A DNA stretch of 64,000 nucleotides from Halostella litorea. GTDB lineage: Archaea > Halobacteriota > Halobacteria > Halobacteriales > Natronoarchaeaceae. Position 1 is the stretch's first letter. The number at the start of each line of letters is the position of its first letter. Positions 17,261 to 30,474 of this stretch are shown here, piece by piece. A program made the translations under genes and the position numbers. The DNA lies in assembly GCF_004785955.1 (NCBI RefSeq), contig NZ_SJER01000008.1, positions 1 through 64,000 on the forward strand, written 5' to 3'. The notes under the pieces were generated by a model. The model searched no databases. It had not been told where the DNA came from and saw only the letters and a program-made list of their open reading frames with translations.

Positions 17261-17871
17261 GCCGACCACCCCGTGAGCGCTACCTGTTCACCGGGCGTCG
17301 CGTCGGCGGTGTCGTCAGCTTCCTCTTGCTGGGGGGTGAGCACGCCGTCATCAACGGCCGCCTCGATGCGGGCGCTGTGGGAGGACCGCACGCGGTGGCC
17401 GCTTGGGCGCTGGCACTTGCGGCCGGAGTTTGCGTTGCACTTCGGACAGACGACCCCACGGGCGGCCTCGTCGCGCTCGTCGTGGTTCCCATCTATCGGC
17501 TCCGGTTCGGCCTCGTCTGCCAGTTCGCGGGCGCGCTCCCGGATCTGCTGACGTTGCTGGGCGTACGTTCCGGTGCCGTGTTCGCGGGGCGTGTGCGGAT
17601 TGAGTGCGTACCAGCCGTCAGCGGCCGCATCGAGGCGAAGCCACTCCGCCGGCGTCGGGTCGTTCGCGCCGATCATGACGAGGTGGTCCCGCGTCGGGTG
17701 GGGCTGACTGTTCGCCTCGGTGAGCGGTTCGCCGCCACAGACACAGGCGACGACGAACTCCCCGCCGTCCCAGAACATGATCCGAACCTCGTCGCCGGGG
17801 GGCGCGTGCTGGCCACCGAGCGGGCAGTCATACGTCACGATCGCCTCGTCGGTTGGTTCCGCACTCTGCAT
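17257..17871 (-). CDS. 204-aa protein with two zinc sites
   Basis: The product has YDCPLGGQHAPPGD and CVCGG in the N-terminal half, and VVCPKCNANSGRKCQRPSGH...HSARIEAA near the C-terminus, the CxxC...C...H finger seen in many phage proteins. The ATG lies two nucleotides after the discriminator-position base of a tRNA-like element (17873-17914), so processing there would give a nearly leaderless mRNA. It is GTGA-coupled to the DUF6884 gene. Confidence 0.55.
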   Translation of the reverse strand: MQSAEPTDEAIVTYDCPLGGQHAPPGDEVRIMFWDGGEFVVACVCGGEPLTEANSQPHPTRDHLVMIGANDPTPAEWLRLDAAADGWYALNPHTPREHGTGTYAQQRQQIRERARELADEAEPEPIDGNHDERDEAARGVVCPKCNANSGRKCQRPSGHRVRSSHSARIEAAVDDGVLTPQQEEADDTADATPGEQVALTGWSA

Positions 17872-17872
17872 A

Positions 17873-17914
17873 GGCCCCGCCGCGGAGTCGAACCGCGGAC
17901 CGCCCGGTCGGGGC
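17873..17914 (-). ncRNA. tRNA-like element A (acceptor stem plus T-arm)
   Basis: Reading the minus strand, GCCCCGA (17914-17908) can pair with GCGGGGC (17880-17874) at six of seven positions. A 10-nt linker follows, then a perfect 17-nt T-arm, CGCGG-TTCGACT-CCGCG (17897-17881), with consensus T-loop. One base (17873) sits at the discriminator position. There is no D-arm or anticodon arm. It fills the 63-nt gap between two genes of the operon and ends one nucleotide before the next ATG. Function as an RNase P/tRNase Z site is inferred. Confidence 0.6.
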
Positions 17915-17934
17915 AGGTCGTGTCCGTCGTCGCG

Positions 17935-18408
17935 CTACGCCTGCGATTCGGCGACGCCCGTCACCGCGCCCGTCTCCGGGTCCTGCTCGACCGTCGCGCC
18001 GCAGTGGCCGCACACCCAGCCTGCAACGCCGTCAGCGTGCCCGAGGTGGTACGCCTCCACGTCGCTCTCCCCACAGCCCGGACAGTCGAGCCGCGTCGAC
18101 TGTCGCAGGTCGACGCTGTGGCCGTGGACCTCAGCGTCGAGCGTGTCGCGGACGACCCGCTCGGCCAGCACGCCGATCGCTTCGTTGCACGCCCGCCGCG
18201 CTTCGGCGAGGTGGCCGACCGCCGCCGGCTCGTCACCGTCGAACGTCCGGAGGTTCCCCTGCCGGTCGTCGGCCGCGTACTGCGCCTTCCACAGCGCCCG
18301 GAGCGTCTCGTCGTTGACCAACTCCTCCTCGGCGCGTTCCCGGGCGTAGCCGGTGAGGTCGCGGTCGTCGACGAACTCCCAGACCCACGCCCCGAACGAC
18401 AGGCTCAT
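17935..18408 (-). CDS. 157-aa protein with C-terminal zinc ribbon
   Basis: The N-terminal two thirds are helical (ERAEEELVNDETLRALWKAQ). The C-terminal part has LDCPGCGESD and WVCGHCGATVE, a complete zinc ribbon. It overlaps the upstream gene by 4 nt. The downstream gap carries tRNA-like element A. Confidence 0.5.
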   Translation of the reverse strand: MSLSFGAWVWEFVDDRDLTGYARERAEEELVNDETLRALWKAQYAADDRQGNLRTFDGDEPAAVGHLAEARRACNEAIGVLAERVVRDTLDAEVHGHSVDLRQSTRLDCPGCGESDVEAYHLGHADGVAGWVCGHCGATVEQDPETGAVTGVAESQA

Positions 18409-18788
18409 CGCTGGCCCTCCGTGTCGGTCGGGGTGTGGGTCGGCTCGGGCAGGTCAGCGGCGTCCGTGACGCCGTTCGCGCCGGCCTGGGGACCGGGCGC
18501 GTGGTTGGCGCGTTGGGCCGACTGGTACCGCTCGGGCGTGTAGAGCTTGTAGGTCCGGAAGCCGCGGATTTCCGTCTCGCCGGCGAGGATCGCCGCCGTG
18601 TCAATGCGGTGGGTCGTGTCCTCCGACTCGGGCGACGCGGTCAGCGTCTTGCCCGTGCTGGAGGTCTCGCCCTCGACGATCGCCGGCGTGTGCATGACCC
18701 GCGTGATCCCGACGATGAGTCGCACCGTCTCGTTGGCGGGCGTTCGGGAGTCGGCCTGTGCGTCGGTCGGAGTCGCTTCCGCGCTCAT
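18405..18788 (-). CDS. 127-aa hypothetical protein, first gene of operon
   Basis: ATG 18788 (MSAEATPTDAQADSR) is chosen because a TATA-like AAGTATAAG lies 25-33 nt upstream, giving a leaderless message. The product has beta-rich segments (ETVRLIVGITRVMHTPAI) and no metal site. It opens the leftward operon that contains the DpdA-like and MCM-like genes. Confidence 0.5.
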   Translation of the reverse strand: MSAEATPTDAQADSRTPANETVRLIVGITRVMHTPAIVEGETSSTGKTLTASPESEDTTHRIDTAAILAGETEIRGFRTYKLYTPERYQSAQRANHAPGPQAGANGVTDAADLPEPTHTPTDTEGQR

Positions 18789-18819
18789 ATCTATACAGTA
18801 CAGCCCCAATCCCTTATAC

Positions 18820-18856
18820 TTTACTGAGTATAGTAGTCTGTACTATTCTGAGTAAA
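18820..18856. promoter_or_regulatory. 37-bp palindromic operator between divergent genes
   Basis: TTTACTGAGTATAGTA (18820-18835) and TACTATTCTGAGTAAA (18841-18856) are inverted copies matching at 13 of 16 positions around a 5-nt centre. The left arm touches the TATA box of the leftward operon. The small winged-helix gene at 18891 is the obvious candidate for the regulator that binds here. Confidence 0.5.
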
Positions 18857-18890
18857 CTACTTGAGTCAAGACCGTAGATATTGAAGTAGC

Positions 18891-19163
18891 ATGGCTACGG
18901 CGCTACACACAGTGACAGTGAACGAAGATCACACCCCCGGTGACGCGGAGGAACGCGTATTACGGGCGTTCAAGCACGATGTCGAGACGTTTGGCGAGTC
19001 GCGCATGAGTCCCGGCCTGATTCGGGACCGGCTGGAGGTCGTGGATGACGGCGCGACGAAGCAAAACGTGAACTACGCCCTGCGACAGCTCACCGCCGCC
19101 GGCTGGGTCAAGAAGATTTCTGACGGGTTATACGAGTTCGTCGACGATCCCCGCGAAGAATAA
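18891..19163 (+). CDS. winged-helix regulator
   Basis: The 90-aa product has AEERVLRAFKHDVETFG, MSPGLIRDRLEVVDD, QNVNYALRQLTAAGWVKKIS and GLYEFVDDP, a complete winged helix ending in the wing. It diverges from the 18788 operon across a palindromic site and is probably its repressor or activator. Confidence 0.65.
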   Translation: MATALHTVTVNEDHTPGDAEERVLRAFKHDVETFGESRMSPGLIRDRLEVVDDGATKQNVNYALRQLTAAGWVKKISDGLYEFVDDPREE

Positions 19164-19169
19164 CGCGAT

Positions 19170-19628
19170 CTACTTCTCACCGACTTGCCCGATGAAGTCG
19201 TCGTCGACGAGCAGCGGCGTCTCGCCGTGCTGCGCGAGGTTGTCGGCCATGCCGAGCGCCTGAACGACCGGGTGGCGCTGGTTGACCTGATAGAGCGGAC
19301 TCCCGTTCATCCGCCGGGTTTCCTCGACCGCTTCGAGGGCGGTCAGCGCGTCGATCTGCCGCGTGAACGTTGCGGGACTCACGTCGGCCAGTCCCTCGTC
19401 GTCGCCCGACCCGTAGATGTCGCTCGCGGACAGCTCCTCGTTGGGCCACCCGACGAACGCCCGGAGGATCCGCGCCCGGGACGCCGGCGTGAGGTAGAAA
19501 TCGAGGACGGCCGCGCCCTCGGTTGCGTCCGGATTGGCTTCGCGGTAGTCCTGGTGGATCTGCATGAGCCGCTCGCGAGTGAACGGCTCCGGGTCGGCGT
19601 CGCCAGTCTGGGACGGGGTTGGTGTCAT
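19170..19628 (-). CDS. winged-helix regulator, 152 aa
   Basis: Starting at MTPTPSQTGDADPEPF, the product carries TPASRARILRAFVGWPNEEL, ASDIYGSG and SPATFTRQIDALTALEAVEE with a wing (MNGSPLYQVN), typical of haloarchaeal helix-turn-helix proteins with an extended C-terminus. A GGAGG-like sequence inside a GTGGGG/CCCCAC hairpin precedes the ATG. An upstream ATG at 19682 is possible but adds a poor sequence. Confidence 0.55.
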   Translation of the reverse strand: MTPTPSQTGDADPEPFTRERLMQIHQDYREANPDATEGAAVLDFYLTPASRARILRAFVGWPNEELSASDIYGSGDDEGLADVSPATFTRQIDALTALEAVEETRRMNGSPLYQVNQRHPVVQALGMADNLAQHGETPLLVDDDFIGQVGEK

Positions 19629-19820
19629 CGTGGGGTGCCTCCACCCCATGCTTGTAGCCCCATTGGTAAAAGTGTTTTGCATAAGTGAGCAATATCAATT
19701 CAGTTTTGAGTCTACACTTTTCATAGATGAAAACCTATAAGTGACTATAGCATATACTGTTAGGTGTGAGACAGGGACGAACCCCTTGCCCTCGCGGGCT
19801 AATCACAGGAGGTGACAAAA
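19629..19820. promoter_or_regulatory. promoter and leader of the 19821 gene
   Basis: No coding feature is seen. CCTATAAGTG near 19734-19743 is a good TATA box, placing the start of transcription near 19765. The roughly 55-nt leader ends with AGGAGGTGA (19808-19816), a near-perfect Shine-Dalgarno sequence, which is unusual in a window dominated by leaderless and overlapping starts. Confidence 0.45.
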
Positions 19821-19979
19821 ATGGGACAACCGAAATGCGACCGTTGTGGTCTCGAAGGCACGATCCTGTACGAGGAACGGTTCTGGTCCGGCTCCTACAC
19901 GGAAACCCTTCCCGACGGGACGACCGCGACCTTCGAGACGCTCTGTGACGACTGTCACAGTTCCCTCGTCCGCAACTAA
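19821..19979 (+). CDS. 52-aa zinc-finger microprotein
   Basis: The product begins MGQPKCDRCGLEGTILYEER and ends LCDDCHSSLVRN, so it has two CxxC pairs about 34 residues apart and little else. It is a stand-alone gene with its own TATA box and a very strong Shine-Dalgarno sequence, suggesting high expression. A T-rich run after the stop may terminate transcription. Confidence 0.65.
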   Translation: MGQPKCDRCGLEGTILYEERFWSGSYTETLPDGTTATFETLCDDCHSSLVRN

Positions 19980-20041
19980 GCGGACGGGTTGACTTCCCAT
20001 ATTTTTTTCGGGGTAACACCGTCGAGAACGGTTCTCCGAGA

Positions 20042-20347
20042 TTACGCGTCGGTCAGGTCGACGATCATCTCTTGCTCGCGAACGTCGACCGTCGTTCCGT
20101 GCCGGTAGTGGACGCGCTCGTACAGCACCCGCCCCTCCCCATCGGTTTCGAGTCGCTCTTGCTCATGTAGTTGCTCGCCGGCGTCAGCATCGGGATCGAC
20201 CAACCCGCGGGAGTGAATCACGGTCGCTTCGGCGGTGCCGTCGGCGTACCGCGTCGTTTCGATCCGCCACTCGTCGCCCCAGCGGTCCCGCGCCGCGCGT
20301 TCGAGGCGGTCGATCATCGCGGGCAGATCGTCGAGGTCGGCGGCCAT
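20042..20347 (-). CDS. 101-aa hypothetical protein
   Basis: An acidic protein starting MAADLDDLPAMIDRLERAA, with a helical N-terminus and strands (RWGDEWRIETTRYADGTAEA). No family is recognised. It is coupled to the AbrB-like gene upstream, with the ATG overlapping its stop. Confidence 0.45.
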   Translation of the reverse strand: MAADLDDLPAMIDRLERAARDRWGDEWRIETTRYADGTAEATVIHSRGLVDPDADAGEQLHEQERLETDGEGRVLYERVHYRHGTTVDVREQEMIVDLTDA

Positions 20348-20742
20348 CACTCTGGCACCTCGTCCTTGAACACGGTGACATCCAGCTCGTCGGCGGCCCG
20401 AAGCGCGATCACGCCGTCGTCGGCGTACACCGACAGCCGGCCTCCGTCGTCGCGGACCGACTCCGGATCGATCCCCAGCACGTCGTGATAGGACTCCGGG
20501 ACGATGAACCGCCCCCGCTGTTGGACGGGGCTGGCGTCGGGGTAGCTCCGACCGTCGACCTTCCGATCGACACCGACTGCGACGAGGACGCCGTCCGTCT
20601 CGGACTGAAAGAACAGCGACCAGCCCGGCCCGATCCCGGCGGCGTCGAGCGCCGGCTTGGGCGTCACCTCGATCGAGCCGGTCCGGTATTTCGGCACAAC
20701 CGTCTGTATCAGCGGCAGGCGACGATCCTCGACCTGTGGCAT
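20347..20742 (-). CDS. AbrB-like double swapped-hairpin protein
   Basis: The 131-aa product contains two similar segments: PKYRTGSIEVTPKPALDAAG leading to SLFFQSETDGVLVAV, and QRGRFIVPESYHDVLGID leading to RLSVYADDGVIALR. Each has the strand-helix-strand pattern of AbrB/SpoVT DNA-binding domains, so one chain may supply both halves of the swapped fold. It is probably a transcription regulator. Confidence 0.5.
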   Translation of the reverse strand: MPQVEDRRLPLIQTVVPKYRTGSIEVTPKPALDAAGIGPGWSLFFQSETDGVLVAVGVDRKVDGRSYPDASPVQQRGRFIVPESYHDVLGIDPESVRDDGGRLSVYADDGVIALRAADELDVTVFKDEVPE

Positions 20743-20816
20743 ACTTGGAGAATGTACAAGCACAGGCAAAAAAGTAGCGACCGAACCGCGGTGGCCCTGT
20801 GGGGGCCGTCAGCGCG

Positions 20817-21335
20817 TCAGTCGTCGGCCAGCAGCGGGTCCGCCGCCACGGACTGCCGCAGGTAGTCGTAGGTGTCGTACTCGTCACGGCGGCGCTGAGC
20901 GACCTCGCGGCGGTCGTCGTCGCGGGCCGTCCGAATCGCCGTTTCGAGGACACGCCGGCGGGCGTCGAGCGTGTCGAGCAGGTCCCGGAGATCGGCGACG
21001 TAGGCGCGCACGTCGTCGCCCGGGGCGGGGAACGACGAGTCGTCGCCGGCCATGAGCATCCGCACGCGGCGGACGTGCTTACAGCCGTTGTCAGGGTCCC
21101 GACGCCGCGCGTCCGGGCAGTCGCAGGTGGCGTTGCCGAGGTCGACCGTGTACTGCGACTGGCTCGCCGAGTAGACGTGGTAGATCGTCGTCGCGGTTCC
21201 GTCGTCGGTCGCGTGGGGAACGACGATCATCGATTCCGTGACGGCGCGGGCCGTGCGCCGGTGGTTCGCGGACAGTTCGTCCATCGCGTACTCGCCGTCG
21301 GATTTGACGGCCAGCAGGTCGGTTTCGTTCGACAT
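20817..21335 (-). CDS. SWIM zinc-finger protein
   Basis: The 172-aa protein has YTVDLGNATCDCPDARRRDP followed by NGCKHVRRVRM, the CxC...CxH SWIM signature at about residues 70-90. A helical C-terminus follows. Its leader carries the conserved hairpin plus GACTCCCTAC sequence shared with the divergent gene at 21508. Confidence 0.65.
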   Translation of the reverse strand: MSNETDLLAVKSDGEYAMDELSANHRRTARAVTESMIVVPHATDDGTATTIYHVYSASQSQYTVDLGNATCDCPDARRRDPDNGCKHVRRVRMLMAGDDSSFPAPGDDVRAYVADLRDLLDTLDARRRVLETAIRTARDDDRREVAQRRRDEYDTYDYLRQSVAADPLLADD

Positions 21336-21337
21336 CG

Positions 21338-21507
21338 GTAGGGAGTCACGGGCGTTTGCCCGTACTTGTACATTGTACGAGTAGATAATAAAGTTTGTGG
21401 TTTATTATAGGCCCTAAATTCGGCTCCCCTCGTGCGTTTTCAATCGGTATCTTTAAGGTTCTTCTTGTATATAATGGTAGTACGGGCGGAAGCCCGTGAC
21501 TCCCTAC
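21338..21507. promoter_or_regulatory. divergent region with mirrored leader hairpins
   Basis: Both divergent genes are preceded by the same leader. For the leftward gene the minus strand reads ACGGGC-AAAC-GCCCGT then GACTCCCTACCG then ATG. For the rightward gene the plus strand reads ACGGGC-GGAA-GCCCGT then GACTCCCTAC then ATG (21482-21507). The 15-mer CCCGTGACTCCCTAC is identical in both. The centre of the region is AT-rich (TATTATAGG) and holds the promoters. Confidence 0.55.
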
Positions 21508-21852
21508 ATGACCGAGCAACAGACCACTCCCGCCGCGCCCGACTCCCGGCCCGACACGCCGACGGGCAAGCCGGCGGGGATGCCAACCGAGGAGTACAGT
21601 CAGCAGATCGCGCGCCTTGTCGCGGTTCGGGACGCGTTCGACGCCGCGCCGCAGGTCACGTCCCACAGCATGTCGCTCGGAGACTCCGGGGCCGTGTCGG
21701 GCGTCGTCCGCGTCCTGACGACCGGGCGGCTCGCCGAACTCAACGGGATTCTCGACGAGCATGGACTGGCCGCGTCTGCGGTCACGCTCGGCACCGAGCG
21801 GATCGACGGCGAGCGCACGCAGACGCTCGGGTTGGTGCTGACCGAGGCGTAG
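21508..21852 (+). CDS. 114-aa hypothetical protein
   Basis: The ATG at 21508 directly follows the conserved leader; a GTG at 21496 is in frame but lies in the hairpin arm. A proline/threonine-rich N-terminus precedes a mixed alpha/beta part (LVAVRDAFDAAPQVTSHSMS, then TLGTERIDGERTQTLGLVLT). No family is recognised. Confidence 0.45.
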   Translation: MTEQQTTPAAPDSRPDTPTGKPAGMPTEEYSQQIARLVAVRDAFDAAPQVTSHSMSLGDSGAVSGVVRVLTTGRLAELNGILDEHGLAASAVTLGTERIDGERTQTLGLVLTEA

Positions 21853-21876
21853 GGGACCGATCCCCGACGCCCCGCC

Positions 21877-22140
21877 ATGGCTCCGTCCCAATCACGGTGG
21901 GCGGCGGCCACGGTCGGGAGCGCGGCCCGCCGGCGTGCGTTCCGCGAGGCCGTGCTGGCCGAGCTGGGTGAGCGCGGCGATCGCTATCGTGAGCGTGCTG
22001 CAGTCGCCTATCGGCGGCCCGACACCGTCGATCCGACCGGGATCGCGCTCGACCGCGGCCTCCCGCTGTCCGCTGGGGCCGCCGAGTCGGTCGCTGACGC
22101 GTTCGTTGACCGCGTCGACCGTGGCGTCGGCGACGTGTGA
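21877..22140 (+). CDS. 87-aa basic helical protein
   Basis: The N-terminus is rich in R and A (RRRAFREAVLAELGERGDRY) and the rest is helical. It lies 24 bp after the previous gene in the same direction. Function unknown. Confidence 0.4.
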   Translation: MAPSQSRWAAATVGSAARRRAFREAVLAELGERGDRYRERAAVAYRRPDTVDPTGIALDRGLPLSAGAAESVADAFVDRVDRGVGDV

Positions 22141-22381
22141 GGCGGCGCGTGGCGGCCGGCAGGCGGCGCTCGTCGCAAGCTTTTTCGGCGGGTGGACGGT
22201 AGGTTCAGATGCGGACAGTCGGCATCGTGATGTAGGGAGTCACGGGTCGTTCGGTCTCGCCGACTGTCTTTGCTTTCGGAGGTTCGTTCTGGAGCGACAG
22301 CAGTTCCTCGCGACAGGCCACAGTAAGCAGTCATTACTGTCCGGTAATGTTTTCATAGTTCGGACAGACAAACCAGTTTGT
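22141..22381. promoter_or_regulatory. parA upstream region with inverted repeat
   Basis: No gene is seen. A third copy of the leader 15-mer lies in minus orientation at 22232-22246 without its hairpin arm or a long ORF. ACAGTAA-GCAGTCA-TTACTGT (22320-22340) is a perfect 7-bp inverted repeat 42 bp before the ParA start, a likely ParA-autoregulation or centromere-type site. Confidence 0.45.
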
Positions 22382-23191
22382 ATGGCAAAACCCGCAAAAC
22401 TCGCTGTGACAAATCAGAAGGGCGGCGTCGGAAAGACGACCGTCGCCATCAACGTCGCCGGCGCGCTCGCAGACCGTGGCCGTGAGGTGCTGTTCGTCGA
22501 CCTCGACCCACAGGGCAACGCGACGGAGAACCTCGGCATGATGGAGGCCTATGACGAGCAACCGCCGTCGCTGTTCAACGTCCTCACCGAACCCGACAAG
22601 CGCGACGCAATCACGGAGATCACGCGGACGCACCCAGCAATGGGCATCGACGTGGTCCCGTCGAACATCGACATGACGGCGGCCGAGCGGGAACTGACGC
22701 TGTCCCGCCGTGGGGCAGAGCAGCTCGCGCTCGCACTCGACGGCGTCGACGACGCGTACGATTACATCCTCGTCGACTGTCCGCCGAACCTCGGCGACCT
22801 CGTTGACAACGCGCTGTACGCGACGCAGAACGTTCTCATCCCCGCACTGGCCGAGACGACGAGTAAGCGCGCGTTCGAGCTGCTCCACGACCACATCACG
22901 ATGCTCGAAGGTGACTACCAGGACGAGGACCTGTCGATCCGTGAGGTCGGCGTCGTGACCAACCGGATCGACGTGCGGAAGAAACAGGCCAAAGAGATGG
23001 TCGACTGGATCAACGAGGCCTATCCCGATGTGCCCGTGTGGGAGATTCGGGAACGCGCGGCGATCCAGCGGTCGCTCGACGAGGGCGCGTCGCTGTTCGA
23101 GGTTGAGCCCGAGTGCGACCAGCGGGAGGCATTCGAGTCGATCGCCGCGTCGCTGGATGAACAGTTCGGCATGGCGGAGGTCGAACCATGA
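22382..23191 (+). CDS. parA: ParA-family partition ATPase
   Basis: The 269-aa protein carries the deviant Walker A KGGVGKTT (13-20), FVDLDPQGNAT (switch I/A' motif) and YILVDCPPNLG (Walker B region). It has no N-terminal DNA-binding domain, so it is the short ParA/Soj type, starting MAKPAKLAVTNQKGG. It overlaps the next gene, its likely partner, by 4 nt. Plasmid partition is the expected role and supports a plasmid origin for the window. Confidence 0.9.
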   Translation: MAKPAKLAVTNQKGGVGKTTVAINVAGALADRGREVLFVDLDPQGNATENLGMMEAYDEQPPSLFNVLTEPDKRDAITEITRTHPAMGIDVVPSNIDMTAAERELTLSRRGAEQLALALDGVDDAYDYILVDCPPNLGDLVDNALYATQNVLIPALAETTSKRAFELLHDHITMLEGDYQDEDLSIREVGVVTNRIDVRKKQAKEMVDWINEAYPDVPVWEIRERAAIQRSLDEGASLFEVEPECDQREAFESIAASLDEQFGMAEVEP

Positions 23192-23631
23192 CCGACGACC
23201 GCGCAGAGCGGATGCGCCAGCGCCGGCAGCAATCCCAACGCTCACAACCGGACGGGGACGAACAAACAGCACAACAAGCAGAACCATCACAACCATCACA
23301 ACCAGCAGAACAGTCCGAACCAGCAGAGACAGGCGAACCAGACAAACCAGACGAACAAGTCGAGACGGCCGAGCAGGACGAACCGGGCGAGACAGGCGAA
23401 GAGTCTGTGAAAGACGAACACGAAGGCGTGTATGTCTATCTCCCGAAAGCACAGAAGAAGCAGCTAAAGCACGTGTACACCGCCGCCAAGGCGACGTACG
23501 AACCCGAGTACGACACGGATTTCGAGAAGAACCGCCACTACTACCCGCTCGTCGTCGAGTTCGGTCTGGAGCGCGTCGCCGACGCGGACGCTGAGGAGTT
23601 AGACGAGATGCTCGACGAACTGGATTACTGA
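23188..23631 (+). CDS. ParA partner protein with disordered N-terminus
   Basis: The 147-aa product begins with about 70 residues of low-complexity Q/P/E repeats (PSQPSQPAEQSEPAET), then a compact domain (GVYVYLPKAQKKQLKHVYTA ending in DEMLDELDY). It is ATGA-coupled to parA. It resembles the small haloarchaeal proteins that follow parA, probably a centromere-binding partner rather than a classical ParB. Confidence 0.6.
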   Translation: MTDDRAERMRQRRQQSQRSQPDGDEQTAQQAEPSQPSQPAEQSEPAETGEPDKPDEQVETAEQDEPGETGEESVKDEHEGVYVYLPKAQKKQLKHVYTAAKATYEPEYDTDFEKNRHYYPLVVEFGLERVADADAEELDEMLDELDY

Positions 23632-23780
23632 CGGCCGCCCGCTTTTTCGTAGTCGTGCCCGAGCGCGTCGACGATCGTCTGGAGTGAGATCCCGCACTTG
23701 TCGCAGACTTCTGCCTCCCCGTCGTGGACGATCACGTGTTCGCCATCCGGACAGGCGTCGTGAAGGTGTGGCGAGTCCAT
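23625..23780 (-). CDS. 51-aa zinc-finger microprotein
   Basis: It starts MDSPHLHDACPDGEHVIVHD and ends with CDKCGISLQT...GHDYEKAGGRQ. C and H in the first part and CDKC in the second can form a zinc ribbon. Its end overlaps the convergent parA-partner gene by 7 nt. Confidence 0.5.
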   Translation of the reverse strand: MDSPHLHDACPDGEHVIVHDGEAEVCDKCGISLQTIVDALGHDYEKAGGRQ

Positions 23781-23815
23781 AGCTACCCATCTCGCTGTGA
23801 ACGTAAGAACCCACG

Positions 23816-24181
23816 CTACGCCCGGAGATACTCGAGTATCGCCCGCGCCCGGTCCTCGCCGACGCCGGGCACGGCCTCCAACTCCGCCCGGTCGGCGTTC
23901 GCGACCGCCTCGATCGACGCGAACTCCCGGGCGATCGCCTTGCTCGTCGCCGGCCCGACGCCGTTGACCTGCTCGACGGCCGCCCGGATACGAGCGTTGC
24001 GCTCGTCGAGATGCAGTTCGAGCCGGCGTTCCAGTTCCTGGCGAGTGATGTCACCGTTCTCGTACGCCCGTTTGGCCTGCTCGACGGGGTCGGGGTCACT
24101 CTGGAGGTGGTCGTACAGGACGCTCGCGGCCGCGAGCGCGAGTATGAAAACCGTCAGCCAGTCCGGCGATCCGTGGGTCAT
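23816..24181 (-). CDS. TM-SHOCT-HhH fusion protein
   Basis: The 121-aa chain has an N-terminal membrane helix (WLTVFILALAAASVLYDHL). A SHOCT-like motif (VEQAKRAYENGDITRQELER) follows, then a helix-hairpin-helix domain (VNGVGPATSKAIAREF and LEAVPGVGEDRARAILEYL). A membrane-anchored DNA-binding module is the direct reading. It is the last gene of the 16.7-kb leftward operon. Confidence 0.6.
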   Translation of the reverse strand: MTHGSPDWLTVFILALAAASVLYDHLQSDPDPVEQAKRAYENGDITRQELERRLELHLDERNARIRAAVEQVNGVGPATSKAIAREFASIEAVANADRAELEAVPGVGEDRARAILEYLRA

Positions 24182-24468
24182 GCGTCGTCGGCGTTGTCCT
24201 CGCTGTCGAAGGGGTCCACACCGTGGTACTCACCGTACTCCATCCAGAGCGGCTCGACGCCGTGGATGCGACACCAGTCCTTCCGGGCGGCGGCGAACGA
24301 CAGCACCGCGAACAGCCAGCAGAAAGCGATCCCGCTCAGTCGGAGCAGTGGGTCGGCCAGGTCCGGATGGTCGACCACCGCGATCGCGCCACCGGCCGCC
24401 GCCGTCACGATCGCCAGCATGAGGTCGCAGTAGTAGGCCAGCCAGCCGGGGCTGTCGTCGGCGGTCAT
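24178..24468 (-). CDS. 96-aa membrane protein
   Basis: Two hydrophobic helices (about residues 15-32 and 42-60; GIAFCWLFAVLSFAAAR) precede a polar tail with DWCRIHGVEP. It is ATGA-coupled to both neighbours, including another membrane-anchored protein. Function unknown. Confidence 0.5.
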   Translation of the reverse strand: MTADDSPGWLAYYCDLMLAIVTAAAGGAIAVVDHPDLADPLLRLSGIAFCWLFAVLSFAAARKDWCRIHGVEPLWMEYGEYHGVDPFDSEDNADDA

Positions 24469-24944
24469 CGCACGGCCGCCAGCACTTGCTCGGCGCGTTC
24501 GGACGGCTGGTCGCCGGTGATGAAGCCCCGTCGCGTCCCGGCCTCGAACGGCGGCAGGTCGACCGGCGGCGTCGTCGGCAGCGCCAGGTCGATAAAGCGG
24601 CCCTCGTCGGGCTCGCGCAGATACCAGTGCGTGCCCGCGTAGTCGGGATCCACGTCGGCCCAGTTGAGACAGAAGACGTCGAGGTCGCAGTCCCGGAGGT
24701 GGTAGTAGCACTCGGCGGCCGGGTAGCACAGCCCCAGCAGCGGGTCGGCGTCGCCCGTGTCGTAGTCGTCATGCTGGAGTTCGGGGTGGTCGCGCAGATA
24801 CGCGCGAATTTCACGGGCGCGTTCGTCGGGCACGATCAGCGCCGTCTCAGTGTCGGTTGGACACGTACAGCCCGGAGTCGGGTGTTCGCACAGGCGGCAC
24901 ACTTCGAGTGGAAGAAACGCGGGATCGATGGTGCTGGCCGTCAT
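24465..24944 (-). CDS. YunG-like protein with N-terminal zinc finger
   Basis: The 159-aa product has CRLCEHPTPGCTCP near the N-terminus, a metal site. It then has LCYPAAECYYHLRD and GTHWYLREPDEGRFIDLA, matching the C...YH and HW.L...G.iiD pattern of YunG/transglutaminase-like phage proteins. Enzyme activity is not established. Confidence 0.45.
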   Translation of the reverse strand: MTASTIDPAFLPLEVCRLCEHPTPGCTCPTDTETALIVPDERAREIRAYLRDHPELQHDDYDTGDADPLLGLCYPAAECYYHLRDCDLDVFCLNWADVDPDYAGTHWYLREPDEGRFIDLALPTTPPVDLPPFEAGTRRGFITGDQPSERAEQVLAAVR

Positions 24945-25612
24945 GAGTGGGTGAAGAAGTCGTCGATGGTCCGTGTCTCAATCGGCAGCTCGCGTGCCCA
25001 CAGCGTCATCTCGCAGCGACAGGCCACGTCGTTGCTCGGCCACGATCCGCAGTCGGGACACGCGTCGCGGGACTCGGCGTAGTGCTTCGGGAACTGCTGG
25101 ATGGGCACGAAGTCGTAGGCCTCGAACAGCGGGCGACTCGTCCGCCCCGCATGCCGTTCCCAGCCGAACGCGAACACCATGCCCGCGCCGTGGCGTTCGG
25201 CCCACTCGAGCCGGCGCTCGAACAGCGCCCGGCCGATGCCCTGCCCGCGCCACGCCGGGTCGACCGCCCCGAAGCACAGGTACGCGTTCCGGTCGCCAGC
25301 GAGCGCACCGGCGTCGAACCGGCCGTCGGGCAGTTCGTCGACAGCCTCGGCGTGGTCCATGATCGACACGATCCCGCCGCCGATCTGCACGTCCCGGTGG
25401 CGGGCGACGACACCGCAGGAGTCGAGGAGTGGGTTGTCGTCGTTGTCCCACCCCATCGCGTCGTGCAGCGGCCACGGGAGTGCGTTGTGGGAGTAGCCGG
25501 TCCCGAAGTAGTGATGCCAGAGGCCGGCGAGGTAGAACGCGTCGTCGCGGCCGTCCGCGCGGTCGATGGTCCACGACTGAGGGACTGATCTGTGTGCCGA
25601 CTTGTGAGCCAT
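24941..25612 (-). CDS. GNAT acetyltransferase
   Basis: The 223-aa product contains the acetyl-CoA pyrophosphate loop AVDPAWRGQGIGRALFERRL (the R/QGIG motif, about residues 122-141) and a typical following helix (EWAERHGAGM). A C-terminal zinc site is suggested by DACPDCGSW and CRCEM. The substrate is unknown. It is TGATG-coupled to the upstream gene. Confidence 0.75.
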   Translation of the reverse strand: MAHKSAHRSVPQSWTIDRADGRDDAFYLAGLWHHYFGTGYSHNALPWPLHDAMGWDNDDNPLLDSCGVVARHRDVQIGGGIVSIMDHAEAVDELPDGRFDAGALAGDRNAYLCFGAVDPAWRGQGIGRALFERRLEWAERHGAGMVFAFGWERHAGRTSRPLFEAYDFVPIQQFPKHYAESRDACPDCGSWPSNDVACRCEMTLWARELPIETRTIDDFFTHS

Positions 25613-26613
25613 CATCCCTCGTACGTCCCTCCGATCCGGCGCTGGCCCCCGAGGCGCTGGGCGCGTTCGTCTCTCGCCTCCGCGACGGCCTCGGCGGTGT
25701 AGTACCGCTCCATGTCGAACTCGACGGCGCGGTCGGCGCAGTTGTCACAGACACGCATCGTCCGCCCCTCGTCACGGCCACGGCGTTGGACGTGGAGGAA
25801 CTGTTCGGCGGGCGCGACGGCGGCACACTGCCGGCAGTAGCTCCAGTCGTCAGCGCCGACGACATCCAGCGCGACGAGGTGGCGGTGGTCATCGATCGCC
25901 GGTGCGTGGACGCCCCGGATACGTTCGCGAGCGACCGTGAACATCCGATACCCGAAGCCAGCGATCGTTCGGAAGTCGCCAAGCTGTGCGTCTTTCCGCA
26001 TCCACGCCATGTCGTACAGGTGTTCCCGATCCCGGTCCTCGCTGTACTTGCTGCCGGGGTCCCACTCCGAATCGAGGTCGATCGGGTGTCCCCGGCGCGG
26101 GTGGAGTTTGCGAGCCCGGAACGCGGCGTGTTCGATCTCCTCCTGCAGCGTCGTCAGCACGCGGTGGCGGTGGTCGGCGTCGGCGATCACCGCGTCGAGG
26201 CAGTCGAACCGGTCGAGGTCCTGATCACGGATTGCTGAGCGCAGGTCCTCGGGATGGGGGATCTCGAACTCGCACACCGTCTCGGGGCGGCGGCTGCCCC
26301 CGTGGATGAACGTCGACTCGCACCACTCGATTTCGGCGTCGGTCAGCTCCCGCTCGGTGAGCGGGACCTCCGCGTAGATGCCGTTCGCGCCGTGGATGTG
26401 GTTGCCCTCGGTGTCGCCGATGTGGGCCGCCGTGCCGATTCGGACGCGGTCGGGGCCGTTGTGGGCGGCGAACAGGTCTTCGTACTCCCGCGTGAGGACC
26501 GACGTGCTGCCGCGTTCGTGGTCGTCGAGATCGTGGCGGCACTTCGCGACGACGCGGAGGCGGTCCCCCAAGTCTTCGACGCGGCGGATCGGATCGCCCG
26601 GTTGGTCGGTCAT
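25612..26613 (-). CDS. 333-aa hypothetical protein with zinc ribbon
   Basis: A large soluble protein with many charged residues. The C-terminal third contains WSYCRQCAAVAPAEQFL and MRVCDNCADRAVEF, a clear zinc ribbon. The middle has histidine-rich segments (GDTEGNHIHGANGIYAEVPL). I recognise no enzyme family. Confidence 0.45.
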   Translation of the reverse strand: MTDQPGDPIRRVEDLGDRLRVVAKCRHDLDDHERGSTSVLTREYEDLFAAHNGPDRVRIGTAAHIGDTEGNHIHGANGIYAEVPLTERELTDAEIEWCESTFIHGGSRRPETVCEFEIPHPEDLRSAIRDQDLDRFDCLDAVIADADHRHRVLTTLQEEIEHAAFRARKLHPRRGHPIDLDSEWDPGSKYSEDRDREHLYDMAWMRKDAQLGDFRTIAGFGYRMFTVARERIRGVHAPAIDDHRHLVALDVVGADDWSYCRQCAAVAPAEQFLHVQRRGRDEGRTMRVCDNCADRAVEFDMERYYTAEAVAEARDERAQRLGGQRRIGGTYEG

Positions 26614-26849
26614 GCGTCCGGGGGCACCTCCTGTAGGTCGACGATCTGCACCGTGTGGTTCAGCGGCGAGACGCTGTCCGTCTGGGACCGCATCTCGTCG
26701 GCCAGCGTTGCGGCTTCGTCGTGGGTGCGAGCGTACTGGTAGTCGTTGTCCGACCGGACGACGGCGTACTCGTCCTCGGGCTTGGCGTGCTCGACCGCGG
26801 CGGCGATCACGTAGAACGGGATCGCACGGGGCATGGCAGTGTCCGTCAT
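26610..26849 (-). CDS. 79-aa hypothetical protein
   Basis: Starting at MTDTAMPRAIPFYVIAAAVE, it has strand-like segments (DEYAVVRSDNDYQYARTHDE) and a short helix. It overlaps both neighbours by 4 nt. Function unknown. Confidence 0.45.
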   Translation of the reverse strand: MTDTAMPRAIPFYVIAAAVEHAKPEDEYAVVRSDNDYQYARTHDEAATLADEMRSQTDSVSPLNHTVQIVDLQEVPPDA

Positions 26850-27202
26850 CGGTCGTCCTCCAGCAGTTCCACGGGCTCGCATTCCTCCAGCAGCACGACC
26901 GGCTCGTCGAGCCACTCCCGAAGGAGGTACCGTCCGCGATTCCCCGCGTACTCGTGGAACAGCTTGACCGTCCGGGCGTCTGCGTCGTAGTACGCCTCGC
27001 AGACCGACCCCTCGTAGAGGACGGCGTCGGCGTGGATCATCGCCCGCGGGTTGCGTGACTCCCCGACGACGCGGTAGCAGTCGACCAGGCGCTCGGGGAC
27101 GTCGTGAACGACCAGCGTCTCGCCGGCGTGCTCGACAGCGGTCCACTCCCGCGGGTACGACTGGTCGGCGTGGGGCGTCGGGGACAGCGCGGTGACGGTC
27201 AT
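26846..27202 (-). CDS. 118-aa hypothetical protein
   Basis: A mixed alpha/beta protein (EHAGETLVVHDVPERLVDCY) ending in acidic LLEECEPVELLEDDR. No family is recognised. It is ATGA-coupled on both sides. Confidence 0.45.
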   Translation of the reverse strand: MTVTALSPTPHADQSYPREWTAVEHAGETLVVHDVPERLVDCYRVVGESRNPRAMIHADAVLYEGSVCEAYYDADARTVKLFHEYAGNRGRYLLREWLDEPVVLLEECEPVELLEDDR

Positions 27203-27522
27203 GCTGTCTCACGCTCCGGGTCGACCTGCCGCCAGACGGTTTCGTGCGACTCGTCCTCGAACGTCTGCTTCTCCCGTTCGTGGGAGTTGCCCTCCTGCTG
27301 CACGCGCTGTTTCGCCGCGTGGCGGTTCGTCGCGCGTTCCTCGCAGCGATAGCTCCAGCCGCAGTCGAGACACTCCGCGACGAACGCGACCGGGGCGTTG
27401 ATGCAGTCCCGGCAGATGAGCCGGCCGCCAGCGACGCCGGCCTGCTCCCCGTCGGCGGCGACCGTCTCCCGACACTCCGCGCAGGTGCCGCTTCGGTCCG
27501 TGGTGGTCTGGTCGGTGCTCAC
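27199..27522 (-). CDS. 107-aa double zinc-ribbon protein
   Basis: Three CxxC pairs are visible: TCAECRETV, LICRDCINA and AECLDCGWSYRC, enough for two zinc sites. The tail is polar and charged. It is ATGA-coupled on both sides. Confidence 0.5.
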   Translation of the reverse strand: MSTDQTTTDRSGTCAECRETVAADGEQAGVAGGRLICRDCINAPVAFVAECLDCGWSYRCEERATNRHAAKQRVQQEGNSHEREKQTFEDESHETVWRQVDPERETA

Positions 27523-27821
27523 ACCTCGGCCCTCCGTGTCGTGCGGACGTCAGGTTGGCCGCCGTCCTCCGCGGACCCGTCCTGTAGATAGCGACCCGCA
27601 CACCAGCCACAGCAGAACGGACCGGCCAGACAGCCGCCTGCCTGGTGGAACCGCCACGGGTGATCCTCGGTGGCCGCGCGGCCACAGACGATACACCAGA
27701 CCGCCGTGAGACGGTCGCGATTGTGCATCGCGACGCCCACGTCCATCCGGAGTTCGGCCCACGAGCGGCCGTCGAAGATGCGGGCGAGTCGGGTGGTGGG
27801 TTTGGGCTTACTCGGTTGCAT
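27519..27821 (-). CDS. 100-aa cysteine/tryptophan-rich protein
   Basis: It starts MQPSKPKPTTRLARIFDGRS. The core has WCIVCGRAATEDHPWRFHQAGG and FCCGWCAGRYL, giving C, H and C ligands of a probable treble-clef or zinc finger. The start lies within the end of the upstream gene. Confidence 0.45.
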   Translation of the reverse strand: MQPSKPKPTTRLARIFDGRSWAELRMDVGVAMHNRDRLTAVWCIVCGRAATEDHPWRFHQAGGCLAGPFCCGWCAGRYLQDGSAEDGGQPDVRTTRRAEV

Positions 27822-28242
27822 CGTCACCACCTCTCCGGCCGTACGTCTCTGGTTCGAGGACCTGGCTCCCCGAACGATATCGGAGGCCGACCAGCCCGTG
27901 GTCGGGATGCTCGAACACGAGCGCCCGGTCGCCCTGCAACTCCGAGACGGCGACGTCGACGAACTCTGCGTCGGCCAGATCGTGCCAGTCCTGCTCGGAC
28001 ACCTTCGAGACGGGGCCGTCCGGGCCGTCGAACGACAGCGTGTCCGGGCGGGCCTCCGAGAGCGTGACCGAGTCGTCGGCCAGCAGGTGCATCGCCGTCT
28101 CGACGTGTTCGAGCGCCTCGTTCACCTCGCCCGGGGCGTCGGCGGCGCTGTCGTAGGCGTTGCCGATGGACAGCAGCGCCGACAGTAGTTGGTACTGGAT
28201 CTGGCTCGGGCGGAGGTCCTCGCGGGACACGTCGGCGTTCAT
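27808..28242 (-). CDS. 144-aa hypothetical protein
   Basis: The N-terminal half is helical (QYQLLSALLSIGNAYDSAAD) and the C-terminal half beta-rich (ALVFEHPDHGLVGLRYRSGS). No recognised family. ATGA-coupled upstream. Confidence 0.4.
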   Translation of the reverse strand: MNADVSREDLRPSQIQYQLLSALLSIGNAYDSAADAPGEVNEALEHVETAMHLLADDSVTLSEARPDTLSFDGPDGPVSKVSEQDWHDLADAEFVDVAVSELQGDRALVFEHPDHGLVGLRYRSGSQVLEPETYGRRGGDDATE

Positions 28243-28967
28243 GCGTCGGAGACCTCCACGCGCCGCAGTTCGATCGCGAAGTCGTACTCGTCGTGATCGG
28301 CGAGGAACACGTAGGGGGCGTCACTACGTTCGTCGGCACGCTTGCACGAGAGCAGCACCAGATCCTCGTGACTCTCGGCGTCCATCACAGCGGCCCCGAC
28401 GCCGAGCCCGCCCTCCCAGGACACGCCGGCTTCGATGATCGTCTCGTCGCGATGTAGTGATACGTCGACGTGTGGGCCGTCAGCGTCGACCCGCTCCATC
28501 AGTTCAACATCGACCGACTCGTCGTTCGGCTCCGGATCGAACCACGCATCCAGCCCGTAGCCGTCCTCGGTCTGGATGTGTGCGTCCTGCGGGAGTCGCG
28601 GCCGGTCGATCTCGGCCGTGGTGACTGCCGCGAGGTCGTAGCTCTCCCAGTCCGGTAGGGCACGTTCCATCGCGTCGAGCGTGTCGACGACCCGCTTGTG
28701 GTCGCTGCCGTAGTCGGAACGGACCCAGCACATGACGCGCCGGAACCGCGGGTGGCCCTCGACGTCGATCGTGACCCGGGTTTCGCGGGTGTCGCCGTCG
28801 TTCGTGTTCGAGTGCTTCACGTCCTCGACGGTACCCGTGATGCCGTAGACGCCGGCCTCGTCGGCCAGTTCGAACTCCATGTAGAGTTCGTCCTGTTCAC
28901 GGGCCGCACCGAGGATGTCGGCGTGGCTTCGCTCCAGGTCGTCGTCCGGGGTGAGCGAGACGCTCAT
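28239..28967 (-). CDS. 242-aa acidic hypothetical protein
   Basis: A beta-rich acidic protein (YMEFELADEAGVYGITGTVE, with repeated strands). No metal or catalytic motif is visible. It follows the PadR-like regulator gene with a 4-nt overlap. Confidence 0.4.
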   Translation of the reverse strand: MSVSLTPDDDLERSHADILGAAREQDELYMEFELADEAGVYGITGTVEDVKHSNTNDGDTRETRVTIDVEGHPRFRRVMCWVRSDYGSDHKRVVDTLDAMERALPDWESYDLAAVTTAEIDRPRLPQDAHIQTEDGYGLDAWFDPEPNDESVDVELMERVDADGPHVDVSLHRDETIIEAGVSWEGGLGVGAAVMDAESHEDLVLLSCKRADERSDAPYVFLADHDEYDFAIELRRVEVSDA

Positions 28968-29323
28968 TCGTGCTCGTCCTCCAGCAGGTGTCCGACACGC
29001 TGGCGGTTCCACGCCTCGTTCGCACGGATCACGCGCCGGCCGCGGTCGGTCAGCTCGTAGGAGTTGGTCCGGCGGTCCTTCTCACGCTTGGCCACGAATC
29101 CGCGCTCGACGAGCACGTCGAGGTTCGGATACAAGCGCGAGTGGTTCAGTTCATCGTAATCAGCTTCGAGGTACTCCTTGATCGCCAGGCCCTTCGGCGC
29201 GCCGAGGTCGGCGATCGCCACGAGGAGATCCCGCTGGAACTCTGTGTGTTCGGGGAGCGTTCGCGCGTCGTCGCTGGTTGTCGTGCTGTCGTCGGTCTCG
29301 GAAGTCGGTGTGGTACTGCTCAT
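28964..29323 (-). CDS. PadR-like winged-helix regulator
   Basis: The 119-aa product contains EFQRDLLVAIADLGAPKGLA, IKEYLEADYDELNHSRLYPN, LDVLVERGFVAK and SYELTDRGRRVI, the PadR-type order (helix, recognition helix with LYPNLD, wing). It is probably a regulator of this operon or of host genes. Confidence 0.7.
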   Translation of the reverse strand: MSSTTPTSETDDSTTTSDDARTLPEHTEFQRDLLVAIADLGAPKGLAIKEYLEADYDELNHSRLYPNLDVLVERGFVAKREKDRRTNSYELTDRGRRVIRANEAWNRQRVGHLLEDEHE

Positions 29324-29859
29324 GCTGTGAATTCAGTAAGAGTCGCTTGCGTTCGGGCCGTCTGTTCGATCTGGTCGTTTTCTGCCGATTGCCGGCGCTC
29401 CCAGTACTCCTTGGAGTGGTACTGGCCATGGTCCGAGGCATCCATCAGTTCGATGTTCTCGGGGCGGTTATCCCAAGGAACGTGGTTGGAGTGATGGACA
29501 TCGCTATCAGCGACCGCTTCAAAGCCGTGCTCTGCAACGGCTAGAAGCCGGTGAACGTAGACGATTCGTCCAGTCCGATCCTCGCCCTCTTTCGACGTCC
29601 AGTACTCGTAGCCGGCCGGGAGTGTTCGGAGCGTGACTTTCTCGACGCGGTTTGCTTCTCGGGCAGCTTCGACCCCGGCTTTCCAGTTTGGCCGGGTGTC
29701 GATATCGAACTCGTTGAGGTACTTGCTCACCGTTCCGTTCGTACACCCCAACTCGTCCGCAATTTCCCTCGTCGTCAGACCGCGGTCGTGGTAGAGTTCC
29801 CGAAGCCGTTCCTCGTCTCGGTACGGCTTCGAAGTACTCGACTGGTCTGAGTCGGTCAT
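29320..29859 (-). CDS. HTH-HNH endonuclease
   Basis: The 179-aa protein joins an N-terminal helix-turn-helix (LTTREIADELGCTNGTVSKY) to an HNH domain. YVHRLLAVAEHG is followed by DVHHSNHVPWDNRPENIELM (H, N, H core at about residues 121-140). This resembles homing HNH nucleases of haloarchaeal viruses. Two tRNA-like elements lie in the gap just upstream. An in-frame TTG at 29913 directly after element B is a possible alternative start. Confidence 0.75.
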   Translation of the reverse strand: MTDSDQSSTSKPYRDEERLRELYHDRGLTTREIADELGCTNGTVSKYLNEFDIDTRPNWKAGVEAAREANRVEKVTLRTLPAGYEYWTSKEGEDRTGRIVYVHRLLAVAEHGFEAVADSDVHHSNHVPWDNRPENIELMDASDHGQYHSKEYWERRQSAENDQIEQTARTQATLTEFTA

Positions 29860-29913
29860 GATCTGTGTGTCGGTCGGCGGTACGTCGCCACCGTAGTTGC
29901 CGCACGATTCCAA

Positions 29914-29954
29914 CGCCCTCCCGCGGACTCGAACCGCGGCACCGCCGCGAGGGC
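29914..29954 (-). ncRNA. tRNA-like element B (acceptor stem plus T-arm)
   Basis: On the minus strand GCCCTCG (29954-29948) pairs with GGAGGGC (29921-29915) at six of seven positions. A 9-nt linker leads to the T-arm CGCGG-TTCGAGT-CCGCG (29938-29922) with a consensus T-loop. A G occupies the discriminator position, followed by TTG. The layout is the same as elements A and C, including the mismatch at the innermost acceptor pair. It lies in the leader of the HTH-HNH gene. Confidence 0.55.
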
Positions 29955-30030
29955 ACGCAGGGGCCGGAACTGGGGGGAAGTCGTGGGTGGAGCGGCCATT
30001 TCGGGCATCCGTGGACACCGTCGGCCCCAA

Positions 30031-30074
30031 GGCCCGCCACCGGGAGTCGAACCCGGCGTCGCAACCGGACGGGC
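30031..30074 (-). ncRNA. tRNA-like element C (acceptor stem plus T-arm)
   Basis: On the minus strand GCCCGTC (30074-30068) pairs with GGCGGGC (30038-30032), seven pairs including one G-U. The linker is 11 nt and the T-arm is CCGGG-TTCGACT-CCCGG (30056-30040). It begins 12 nt after the stop of the 30087 gene and sits 76 nt upstream of element B. The stem sequences differ from A and B while pairing is kept, which supports a selected structure. Confidence 0.6.
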
Positions 30075-30086
30075 ACCGCATCGCGG

Positions 30087-30293
30087 TCAGTCCTCTCTCG
30101 GGTCGTCGGGCAGCGCCGTCTCGTCGGGCGTCCGGTCCGGATCGGGGCGCGGGCGGCGAGTCGTTCGCGAGCCCGTGTCCCGTGACAGCCACACCGCGAC
30201 CGTCTCACCGCACAGGCCGACGAACAGCACGCCCGACACGGCCGCCAGCGCCAGCAGGCCGACCAGCGCACCAGCGTGCTCAGTCCCCAGCAT
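30087..30293 (-). CDS. 68-aa single-span membrane protein
   Basis: ATG 30293 (MLGTEHAGALVGLLALAAVS) opens directly into one long hydrophobic helix (to about residue 34), followed by a basic then acidic tail rich in R, P and D. A GTG six bases upstream is an alternative start. It overlaps the RHH gene. Confidence 0.55.
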   Translation of the reverse strand: MLGTEHAGALVGLLALAAVSGVLFVGLCGETVAVWLSRDTGSRTTRRPRPDPDRTPDETALPDDPRED

Positions 30294-30474
30294 TGGCACC
30301 CTCCACGGCGTCGAGCCCCCGTGCGACGAGCTGGCGCAGCGCCTCCGAGCGGTTCGGGAACACGTCCTCGTCGACCAGCGCCTCGACGCGGTCGACCAGC
30401 GGGTCGTCGTAGCGGACCGTGATGCGCGTGTGATCGGTCGTCGCGGCGCTGCCGCGGCGCTGGTCCGTGCTCAT
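30280..30474 (-). CDS. ribbon-helix-helix DNA-binding protein
   Basis: The 64-aa product has the RHH pattern ITVRYDDPLVDRVEALVDED followed by FPNRSEALRQLVARGLD: a beta strand, helix A, an N-R-S-E-A turn and helix B. It is a small transcription regulator. ATGA-coupled upstream. Confidence 0.75.
   Translation of the reverse strand: MSTDQRRGSAATTDHTRITVRYDDPLVDRVEALVDEDVFPNRSEALRQLVARGLDAVEGANAGD

Follow-up and report, generated by a model that had tools for sequence, protein, structure and literature searches.

Minimal tRNA-like elements between genes of a Halostella litorea contig, with relatives in haloarchaea, haloviruses and phages: candidate signals for cutting transcripts

The tRNA-like domain of transfer-messenger RNA (tmRNA) and mascRNA both have an acceptor stem and a T-arm with a reduced D region, and both are processed by enzymes that act on transfer RNA (tRNA). 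Animal mitochondria have near-leaderless messenger RNAs (mRNAs). This report concerns minimal elements of acceptor stem plus T-arm, three of which (E1, E2 and E3) lie between genes in a stretch of 64,000 nucleotides (nt) from Halostella litorea (contig NZ_SJER01000008.1, positions 1 to 64,000; hereafter the window). Similar stems stand in viruses and before a conserved haloarchaeal gene, and the elements therefore probably mark places at which transcripts are cut. Unlike tmRNA and mascRNA, which are parts of non-coding RNAs, they are operon spacers. As tRNA-shaped spacers between genes they resemble the tRNA punctuation of animal mitochondria, where the RNAs are released by RNase P and RNase Z (PMC8437803). 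The mitochondrial spacers, however, are functional tRNAs, whereas the present elements are minimal mimics without a D or anticodon arm.

The t-elements upstream of Haloferax 5S ribosomal RNA (rRNA) are cut by tRNase Z, and a t-element pair released a guide RNA in vivo (PMC4326828). The present elements are like the 5S t-element of Haloferax volcanii, a tRNA-like signal in a haloarchaeon that is cut by tRNase Z on the 3' side and, when used as a tool, by RNase P on the 5' side (PMC4326828, PMC4946936); a knock-down of RNase P RNA has also been described (PMC4946936). The 5S t-element precedes an rRNA, whereas the elements described here precede protein starts or follow stop codons, have 6+6 pairs and a GG linker, and recur in viruses; no 5S match was found in this assembly. 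They are also like the intergenic repeats of halovirus HF2 in being intergenic signals of the same viruses, but those repeats are AT-rich promoters (PMC8707807), and the HF2 minihelices at 2905–2945 and 4375–4414 have no feature in the sequence record of the virus. Already published are t-elements of a single haloarchaeal rRNA and their use as a laboratory tool. A literature search, which left most subscription papers outside, returned no description, in the parts of the sources available, of such elements adjoining the start or stop codons of mRNAs, either in archaea or in phages.

Structure of the elements and their excess over chance

The three elements were found on re-reading the sequence at the places given by the original prediction, on the minus (sense) strand, where they read 17914–17874, 30074–30032 and 29954–29915:

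17874–17914, minus strand: E1; acceptor 17914–17909/17879–17874, linker 17908–17899, T-stem 17898–17893/17885–17880, loop TTCGACT 17892–17886; discriminator base C 17873
30032–30074, minus strand: E2; 7-bp acceptor and 6-bp T-stem including G-T pairs, loop TTCGACT, linker CGGTTGCGAC; discriminator base C 30031
29915–29954, minus strand: E3; 6+6 pairs, loop TTCGAGT, linker GCGGCGGTG; discriminator base G 29914

Every pair is formed in E1 and E3 (12 of 12 each, as 6+6) and in E2 (13 of 13, as 7+6 with G-T pairs counted). Each element has a linker of 9–10 nt with a GG, which recalls a D-loop, a seven-base loop TTCGANT, and one discriminator base after the acceptor. In the register first proposed, a 7-bp acceptor and a 5-bp T-stem, pair 7 is a mismatch in E1 and E3, and 6+6 or 7+6 fits better. 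The general form of the prediction, an acceptor stem and T-arm without D or anticodon arm between genes, was upheld by pairing tests, by codon positions and by relatives elsewhere. E1–E3 have the stackable acceptor and T-arm of a t-element (12–13 pairs, loop TTCGANT) and do not form the cloverleaf of a tRNA gene: ARAGORN called no tRNA in the window, and no Rfam family reached its gathering score there. At lax thresholds, Rfam gave weak matches in the window and in the leaders described below, which were taken for chance, including a tRNA-Sec match on a tRNA-like stretch behind the gene in locus L105. A reading of the stems as terminators was rejected, as no T run follows them.

The pairing is far beyond chance in the shuffle control that had been named in advance. 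The whole contig that contains the window (C7) was scanned strictly, with all 12 pairs and a linker of 7–12 required; it has five such minihelices (E1, E2, E3, E6 and E7), compared to four in total over 300 dinucleotide shuffles, none of which had more than 1 (mean 0.013). When only the window was scanned, with looser settings, three places were found, compared to a mean of 0.55 and a maximum of 2 in 60 shuffles.

A covariance-model search, also suggested earlier, was run with R1, a model of 21 elements from outside this genome, and matches were found in the haloarchaeal genome, in phage contigs and in HF2-like viruses. Among the 150 of 8,967 first-look candidates that were scored in the genome, the top four were E1 (52.1 bits, the best), E3 (38.9 bits), E6 (a sister copy) and E2 (34.3 bits), with E4 fifth. 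The training elements came from an E1–E3-like pattern and were chosen for complete pairing, and the covariation and E-values of R1 are therefore overstated; permuted T-stem pairs, orthologous elements and positions relative to codons are less biased evidence. Three MAFFT alignments (A1, A2, A5) had misaligned stems and were set aside.

C7 has 101,553 bases and is part of a 3.7-Mb genome whose relatives place it with the haloarchaea. C7 is plasmid- or provirus-like, given that the window encodes an MCM helicase, DNA methyltransferases and an integrase. Outside the window, C7 has two E2-like copies that the original prediction did not include, E6 (77.1 kb) and E7 (79.4 kb), and a weaker member, E8, at 77,880 (25.6 bits, E 0.07), 6 nt past a stop codon. 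By eye, E6, E8 and E7 occupy three consecutive gaps of a second C7 operon. The sequence GTTCGANTC followed by 12 nt and TATG occurs at exactly three places in the genome – E1 and the chromosomal E4 and E5. The latter two are 360 nt apart, have the start-codon spacing of E1, and are both conserved in one sister species. The open reading frame (ORF) behind E4 has only 33–40 codons, while E5 is upstream of the gene for a protein of about 100 residues.

Place of the elements in their operons

A possible start codon stands 0–1 nt past the discriminator base in all three elements – ATG in E1, TTG in E2 and TTG in E3 – a feature absent from the original prediction. The flanking features are:

17935–17937, minus strand: stop codon (17937–17935) of the gene upstream of E1, then a 20-nt spacer (stop plus spacer, 17915–17937)
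17869–17873, minus strand: 3' side of E1; discriminator C 17873, one T, then ATG 17871–17869 of the zinc-finger gene
17257–17871, minus strand: gene downstream of E1, with a phage zinc-finger domain (Pfam Phage_zn_bind_8, 2.9e-7)
30087–30089, minus strand: stop codon (30089–30087) of the ORF upstream of E2, then a 12-nt spacer (stop plus spacer, 30075–30089)
30028–30031, minus strand: 3' side of E2; discriminator C 30031, directly followed by TTG 30030–30028, in frame with the HNH ORF
29911–29914, minus strand: 3' side of E3; discriminator G 29914, directly followed by TTG 29913–29911, the likely start of the HNH protein
29320–29913, minus strand: HNH endonuclease-like gene with a helix-turn-helix (Pfam HNH_3, 2.6e-8 on the longer ORF 29320–30192)

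From the TTG behind E3 to the common TDTQ there are 17 residues, the same number as in the viral homologue L078, which starts with ATG; TTG 29913–29911 is therefore supported as the real HNH start. Placement from stop to start on the sense strand is true of E1 and E2, and E3, which follows E2, has no separate stop before it. The HNH frame is open from E2 through E3 (window 29911–30030), so that unprocessed RNA could yield a longer HNH protein.

A crude gene chain leaves a single gap in the leftward run of 14.6–18.8 kb, and E1 occupies it (63 nt); E2 and E3 are flanked by the stop at 30087 on one side and by the HNH gene on the other. The claim that the elements fill the only sizeable gaps is thus true of these two runs, but the same chain has other gaps of 171–367 nt, some of which may be missed genes. 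A plasmid search with the E1 region gave partial matches only, and the phage collection had no DNA match to window 28000–32000.

Relatives in haloarchaea, haloviruses and phages

Mini-elements were sought in 392 genomes of the order. The pattern GCCC N13-20 GGTTCGANTCC N4-8 GGGC had 51 matches in 41 genomes, and its reversed control had none. In the 48 distinct matches (four from C7), an average of 2.54 of the three T-stem pairs left free by the pattern were formed, compared to 1.39 when permuted (maximum 1.77 of 2000); all three were present in 35. The linker had a GG anywhere in 34 of 35, where 28.3 were expected from shuffled linkers (34 was reached in 6 of 2000), and at positions 2–6 in 29 of 35, where 16.6 were expected (maximum 25 of 2000). 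In tRNA the GG of the D-loop contacts the T-loop, and from its conservation in the linker we infer that the elbow is kept. Thirty mini-element loci were fetched, eight of them with an incomplete T-stem; an ORF stop is at most 60 nt upstream in 15 of the 22 with a full T-stem. The mini-elements at L322, L323 and L324 also adjoin an ATG.

The TATG pattern (GTTCGANTC, 12 nt, TATG) had a match in 195 of the 392 genomes and its reverse in 16, though not all of these matches are members: thirty fetched loci were 11 leaders of the conserved gene and 19 with at most 4 of 5 T-stem pairs, and 20 further hand-picked matches gave three mini-elements, one conserved-gene leader, three real tRNAs and an unconvincing remainder.

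The conserved gene is the one behind E5. By profile search, 224 of the 392 genomes of the order encode its protein of about 100 residues (VSLRVPRG ... RPTxTDIRVD ... LxDGFG), with 64 of the 95 genera represented; Haloarcula pellucida, Haloarcula rara and Halomicrobium katesii are among the named carriers. It has no Pfam or NCBIfam family above cut-off and a predicted topology of E-H-E-E-H-E, and a fold search with it gave nothing at E 0.001 (best 8.3e-3). Ninety loci were examined, the 30 best matches and 60 chosen for spread (L092–L181). A TTCGA T-arm stands upstream in 84 of them, with five of five pairs in 58 and four of five in 26. The first ATG after position 73 in these 84 loci follows by 1 nt (44 loci), 2 nt (28), 3 nt (7) or 4 nt (5); L162 is dropped from the count of in-frame starts, as its ATG is not in frame, so that 83 of the 90 leaders have an in-frame ATG 1–4 nt past position 73. 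The 5' acceptor strand forms 6.36 pairs with its own partner and 6.01 with permuted ones (maximum 6.17 of 200), a positive but weak signal.

The six loci without the TTCGA T-arm are four of genus g19, L147 and L151. The four g19 loci have lost the T-arm, and L140 and L142 retain, by eye, only the acceptor stem. In genus g38 (L147, L151 and probably L162) the leader is tRNA-like but different, its T-loop reading ATCGA by eye, and may have been recruited independently. Some leaders come close to complete tRNA-like molecules: ARAGORN calls tRNA-Glu at L134, L137 and L052, and these leaders, joined to a start codon, may be listed in annotations as true tRNA genes. In others the anticodon arm is short or absent. 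ARAGORN called one leader in 31 loci and, by coordinates, 11 of 13 hand-picked loci, often with an incomplete anticodon.

Nine HF2-like viruses (HJTV-2, HF2, HRTV-8, HRTV-14, HRTV-9, HRTV-19, HCTV-9, Serpecor1 and Hardygib1; L398 is Haloarcula virus HJTV-2) have two R1 matches each, 18 in all, at matching places across all nine. The HF2 minihelices named above are the only R1 matches below E 0.01 in that virus, and neither is annotated. The stems of the first element are invariant, and their outermost pair is an A-C mismatch. In the second element, acceptor pairs 3 and 5 have changed on both sides: two viruses have GCCCCG/CGGGGC, six have GCTCCG/CGGAGC and one has GCTCTG/CAGAGC. The model-fitted count of six double-change pairs mixes two different elements, and within one orthologous element there are only two. 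In the gaps seen through to the ATG, the element is followed by a second hairpin and then GTGACACC-ATG. An HF2 'tRNA-Pro' upstream of the terminase was considered as a member and rejected, its strand being opposite to the genes.

The GCCC pattern also occurs in IMG/VR, where any count from the matches listed is a lower bound. On 86 loci R1 had 47 matches at E ≤0.05, or 44 after three repeats of one phage were removed; R1 training members are among these 44, as are near-identical contigs (L377/L437, L406/L445, L420/L461). An ORF stop is at most 60 nt upstream in 37 of the 44, compared to 27% of random same-strand places, at most 12 nt upstream in 29, and at 6–9 nt in 26. Several contigs have more than one element. 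L432 has four copies, each 6–8 nt past a stop codon. The metagenomic contig L479, read by eye, has five in 1.6 kb, four just past a stop and the first with a stop inside it. Gordonia phage Trine (L514) has three tandem copies near 31980–32250 with no annotated RNA feature, and an ATG 32 nt past the last. A viral scan with GGTTCGANTCC N11 TATG gave, among the matches listed, mostly real phage tRNA genes, uncounted, and was set aside.

Possible cutting of transcripts and rival readings

The reading towards which we lean, with some reserve, is that the elements act as tRNA-like punctuation: cuts by RNase P and tRNase Z would leave haloarchaea with near-leaderless mRNAs. The pairing with its covariation, the position at stop and start codons and the distribution are observed; the cleavage is inferred. 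The elements would be transcribed within polycistronic mRNAs and would fold as a coaxial acceptor/T-arm helix of 12–13 bp, with the GG of the linker docking on the T-loop as a D-loop does. Enzymes of tRNA ends would recognise the folded element: RNase P would cut before its first base, so that the upstream message ends shortly after its stop codon, and tRNase Z would cut after the discriminator, freeing the downstream message. Where the element adjoins a start codon, as in the window, the downstream message would begin 0–4 nt before the start and so be leaderless or nearly so. About 70% of transcripts are leaderless in two haloarchaea (PMC8303175).

A number of facts weigh against this reading. 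In vitro assays by Hoelzle et al. (2012) on several tRNA-like elements computed for Haloferax volcanii reportedly showed cleavage at the 5S element only. In their minimum-energy folds, E1 and E3 alone keep the acceptor and re-pair the T-arm, by 3.1 and 1.3 kcal/mol; E1 folded in context loses the acceptor, and the lowest-energy folds of the first HF2 element and of L324 are also other than the minihelix. Start codons adjoin only a minority of the mini-elements outside the window: E6, E7 and E8 do not adjoin an evident start of the next gene, an ORF start is within 4 nt in only six of the 22 full-T-stem haloarchaeal mini-elements (L346, L351, L353, L354, L363 and L365), and an ATG stands 2 nt past the element in only three of the 44 phage matches (L377, L437 and L421). 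Annotated genes cover some members, namely gene 40 of phage Trine over its three elements and a coding sequence extension over the second element in four of the nine HF2-like records. Relatives of the E1 protein were matched in 28 of 392 genomes, many of them weakly or partially, with no element just upstream in any of 11 loci examined, and had no match in viral contigs; HNH relatives in eight viral contigs also had no element just upstream. Homologous elements at equivalent gaps, which the original prediction called for, were thus lacking for these two genes in the loci examined, though present at matching places in the nine HF2-like viruses. The strongest single contrary fact is the one published 5' end found near a member, mapped in HF2 by primer extension to T-4384, which its authors read as a transcription start (PMC8707807): it is nt 10 of the element at 4375–4414, at neither predicted cut. 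T-4384 may be a promoter start inside the element, the intact helix then being formed only on read-through transcripts.

As only a minority of mini-elements elsewhere abut a start codon, their more general role may be to free the upstream message behind its stop. In the phages, the spacer of 6–9 nt between stop and element fits the stretch of leader, positions −8 to −3, that is contacted by the RNase P protein (PMC11143913), and cutting may therefore be coupled to translation termination. This leads to a broader proposal, attractive but at present doubtful enough to be held only tentatively: that minimal tRNA mimics, largely unannotated, punctuate operons across domains, in haloarchaeal plasmids and viruses and in bacterial phages, with cutting perhaps tied to translation termination and with leaderless mRNAs in haloarchaea, including one for a gene conserved in most sampled genera.

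The most serious alternative, which we consider rather unlikely, is a regulatory tRNA mimic that is not cut. It would control initiation, or protect the ends of mRNAs, by hiding the start codon or by binding a protein that recognises tRNAs, such as a synthetase, a CCA-adding enzyme or a modification enzyme. The near-complete leaders called as tRNA-Glu invite specific tRNA-binding proteins, and the in-frame start that follows the acceptor end by 1–4 nt in 83 of the 90 leaders would suit such control. However, anticodon arms are variable or short in many leaders and absent from the window and phage elements, so that recognition must rest on the acceptor and T-arm, which is what RNase P and tRNase Z recognise; nor would control of initiation explain why the phage elements are mostly 6–9 nt past stops.

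The elements could also be attachment sites, at which integrases use a copied 3' half of a tRNA, or short repeats that spread. Attachment sites commonly contain the T-arm and the 3' acceptor strand of a tRNA, E2, E6 and E7 are near-copies on one replicon, and single matches in the viral scans may be of this type; HF2 has such a site elsewhere (PMC8707807). But attachment copies need neither a 5' acceptor strand nor compensatory changes, whereas here the pairing exceeds the part fixed by the pattern, the stems change in step, and the elements lie on the sense strand between genes, several to an operon (five in L479, four in L432). Among the listed GGTTCGANTCC places, inspected by eye, there was no host tRNA with the stems of E1–E3. 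This reading is improbable, and even more so is one of decayed tRNA genes without present function that lie between genes by coincidence: some leaders of the chromosomal gene do resemble full tRNAs and four g19 loci have lost the T-arm, but decay would not produce double changes that keep pairing, nor preserve the linker GG and the spacing to stops and starts. Both were weighed and rejected. Chance stem-loops, for which the window's G+C content of 0.63 might speak, as GCCC/GGGC stems readily arise in such DNA, deserve next to no credence: five real minihelices against four in 300 shuffles, and 51 pattern matches in 392 genomes against none reversed, already refute them for the class, and chance may account only for isolated weak members elsewhere.

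These elements are a concrete, mutable candidate signal for dividing long haloarchaeal viral transcripts into short mRNAs, and a class missed by the annotations examined here. If they are cut, the mitochondrial principle of tRNA punctuation would extend to archaea and phages, and leaderless mRNA would have a second route besides transcription start. In HF2, transcripts of up to ca. 35 kb were found by reverse transcription PCR, compared to Northern bands of 0.5–9 kb, and processing was offered by the authors as one explanation, with no signal named (PMC8707807).

Other gaps in these viruses have spacers of different kinds. In L618, L620 and L622–L625, another gene gap has no minihelix and a conserved longer hairpin (GTTGTCT ... 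GGACAAC) before the ATG. In HF2, one gene gap contains a predicted hammerhead ribozyme (L627:10292–10359) and others contain tRNA genes, and the virus has an RtcB ligase; its self-cutting and enzyme-cut spacers may serve the same end.

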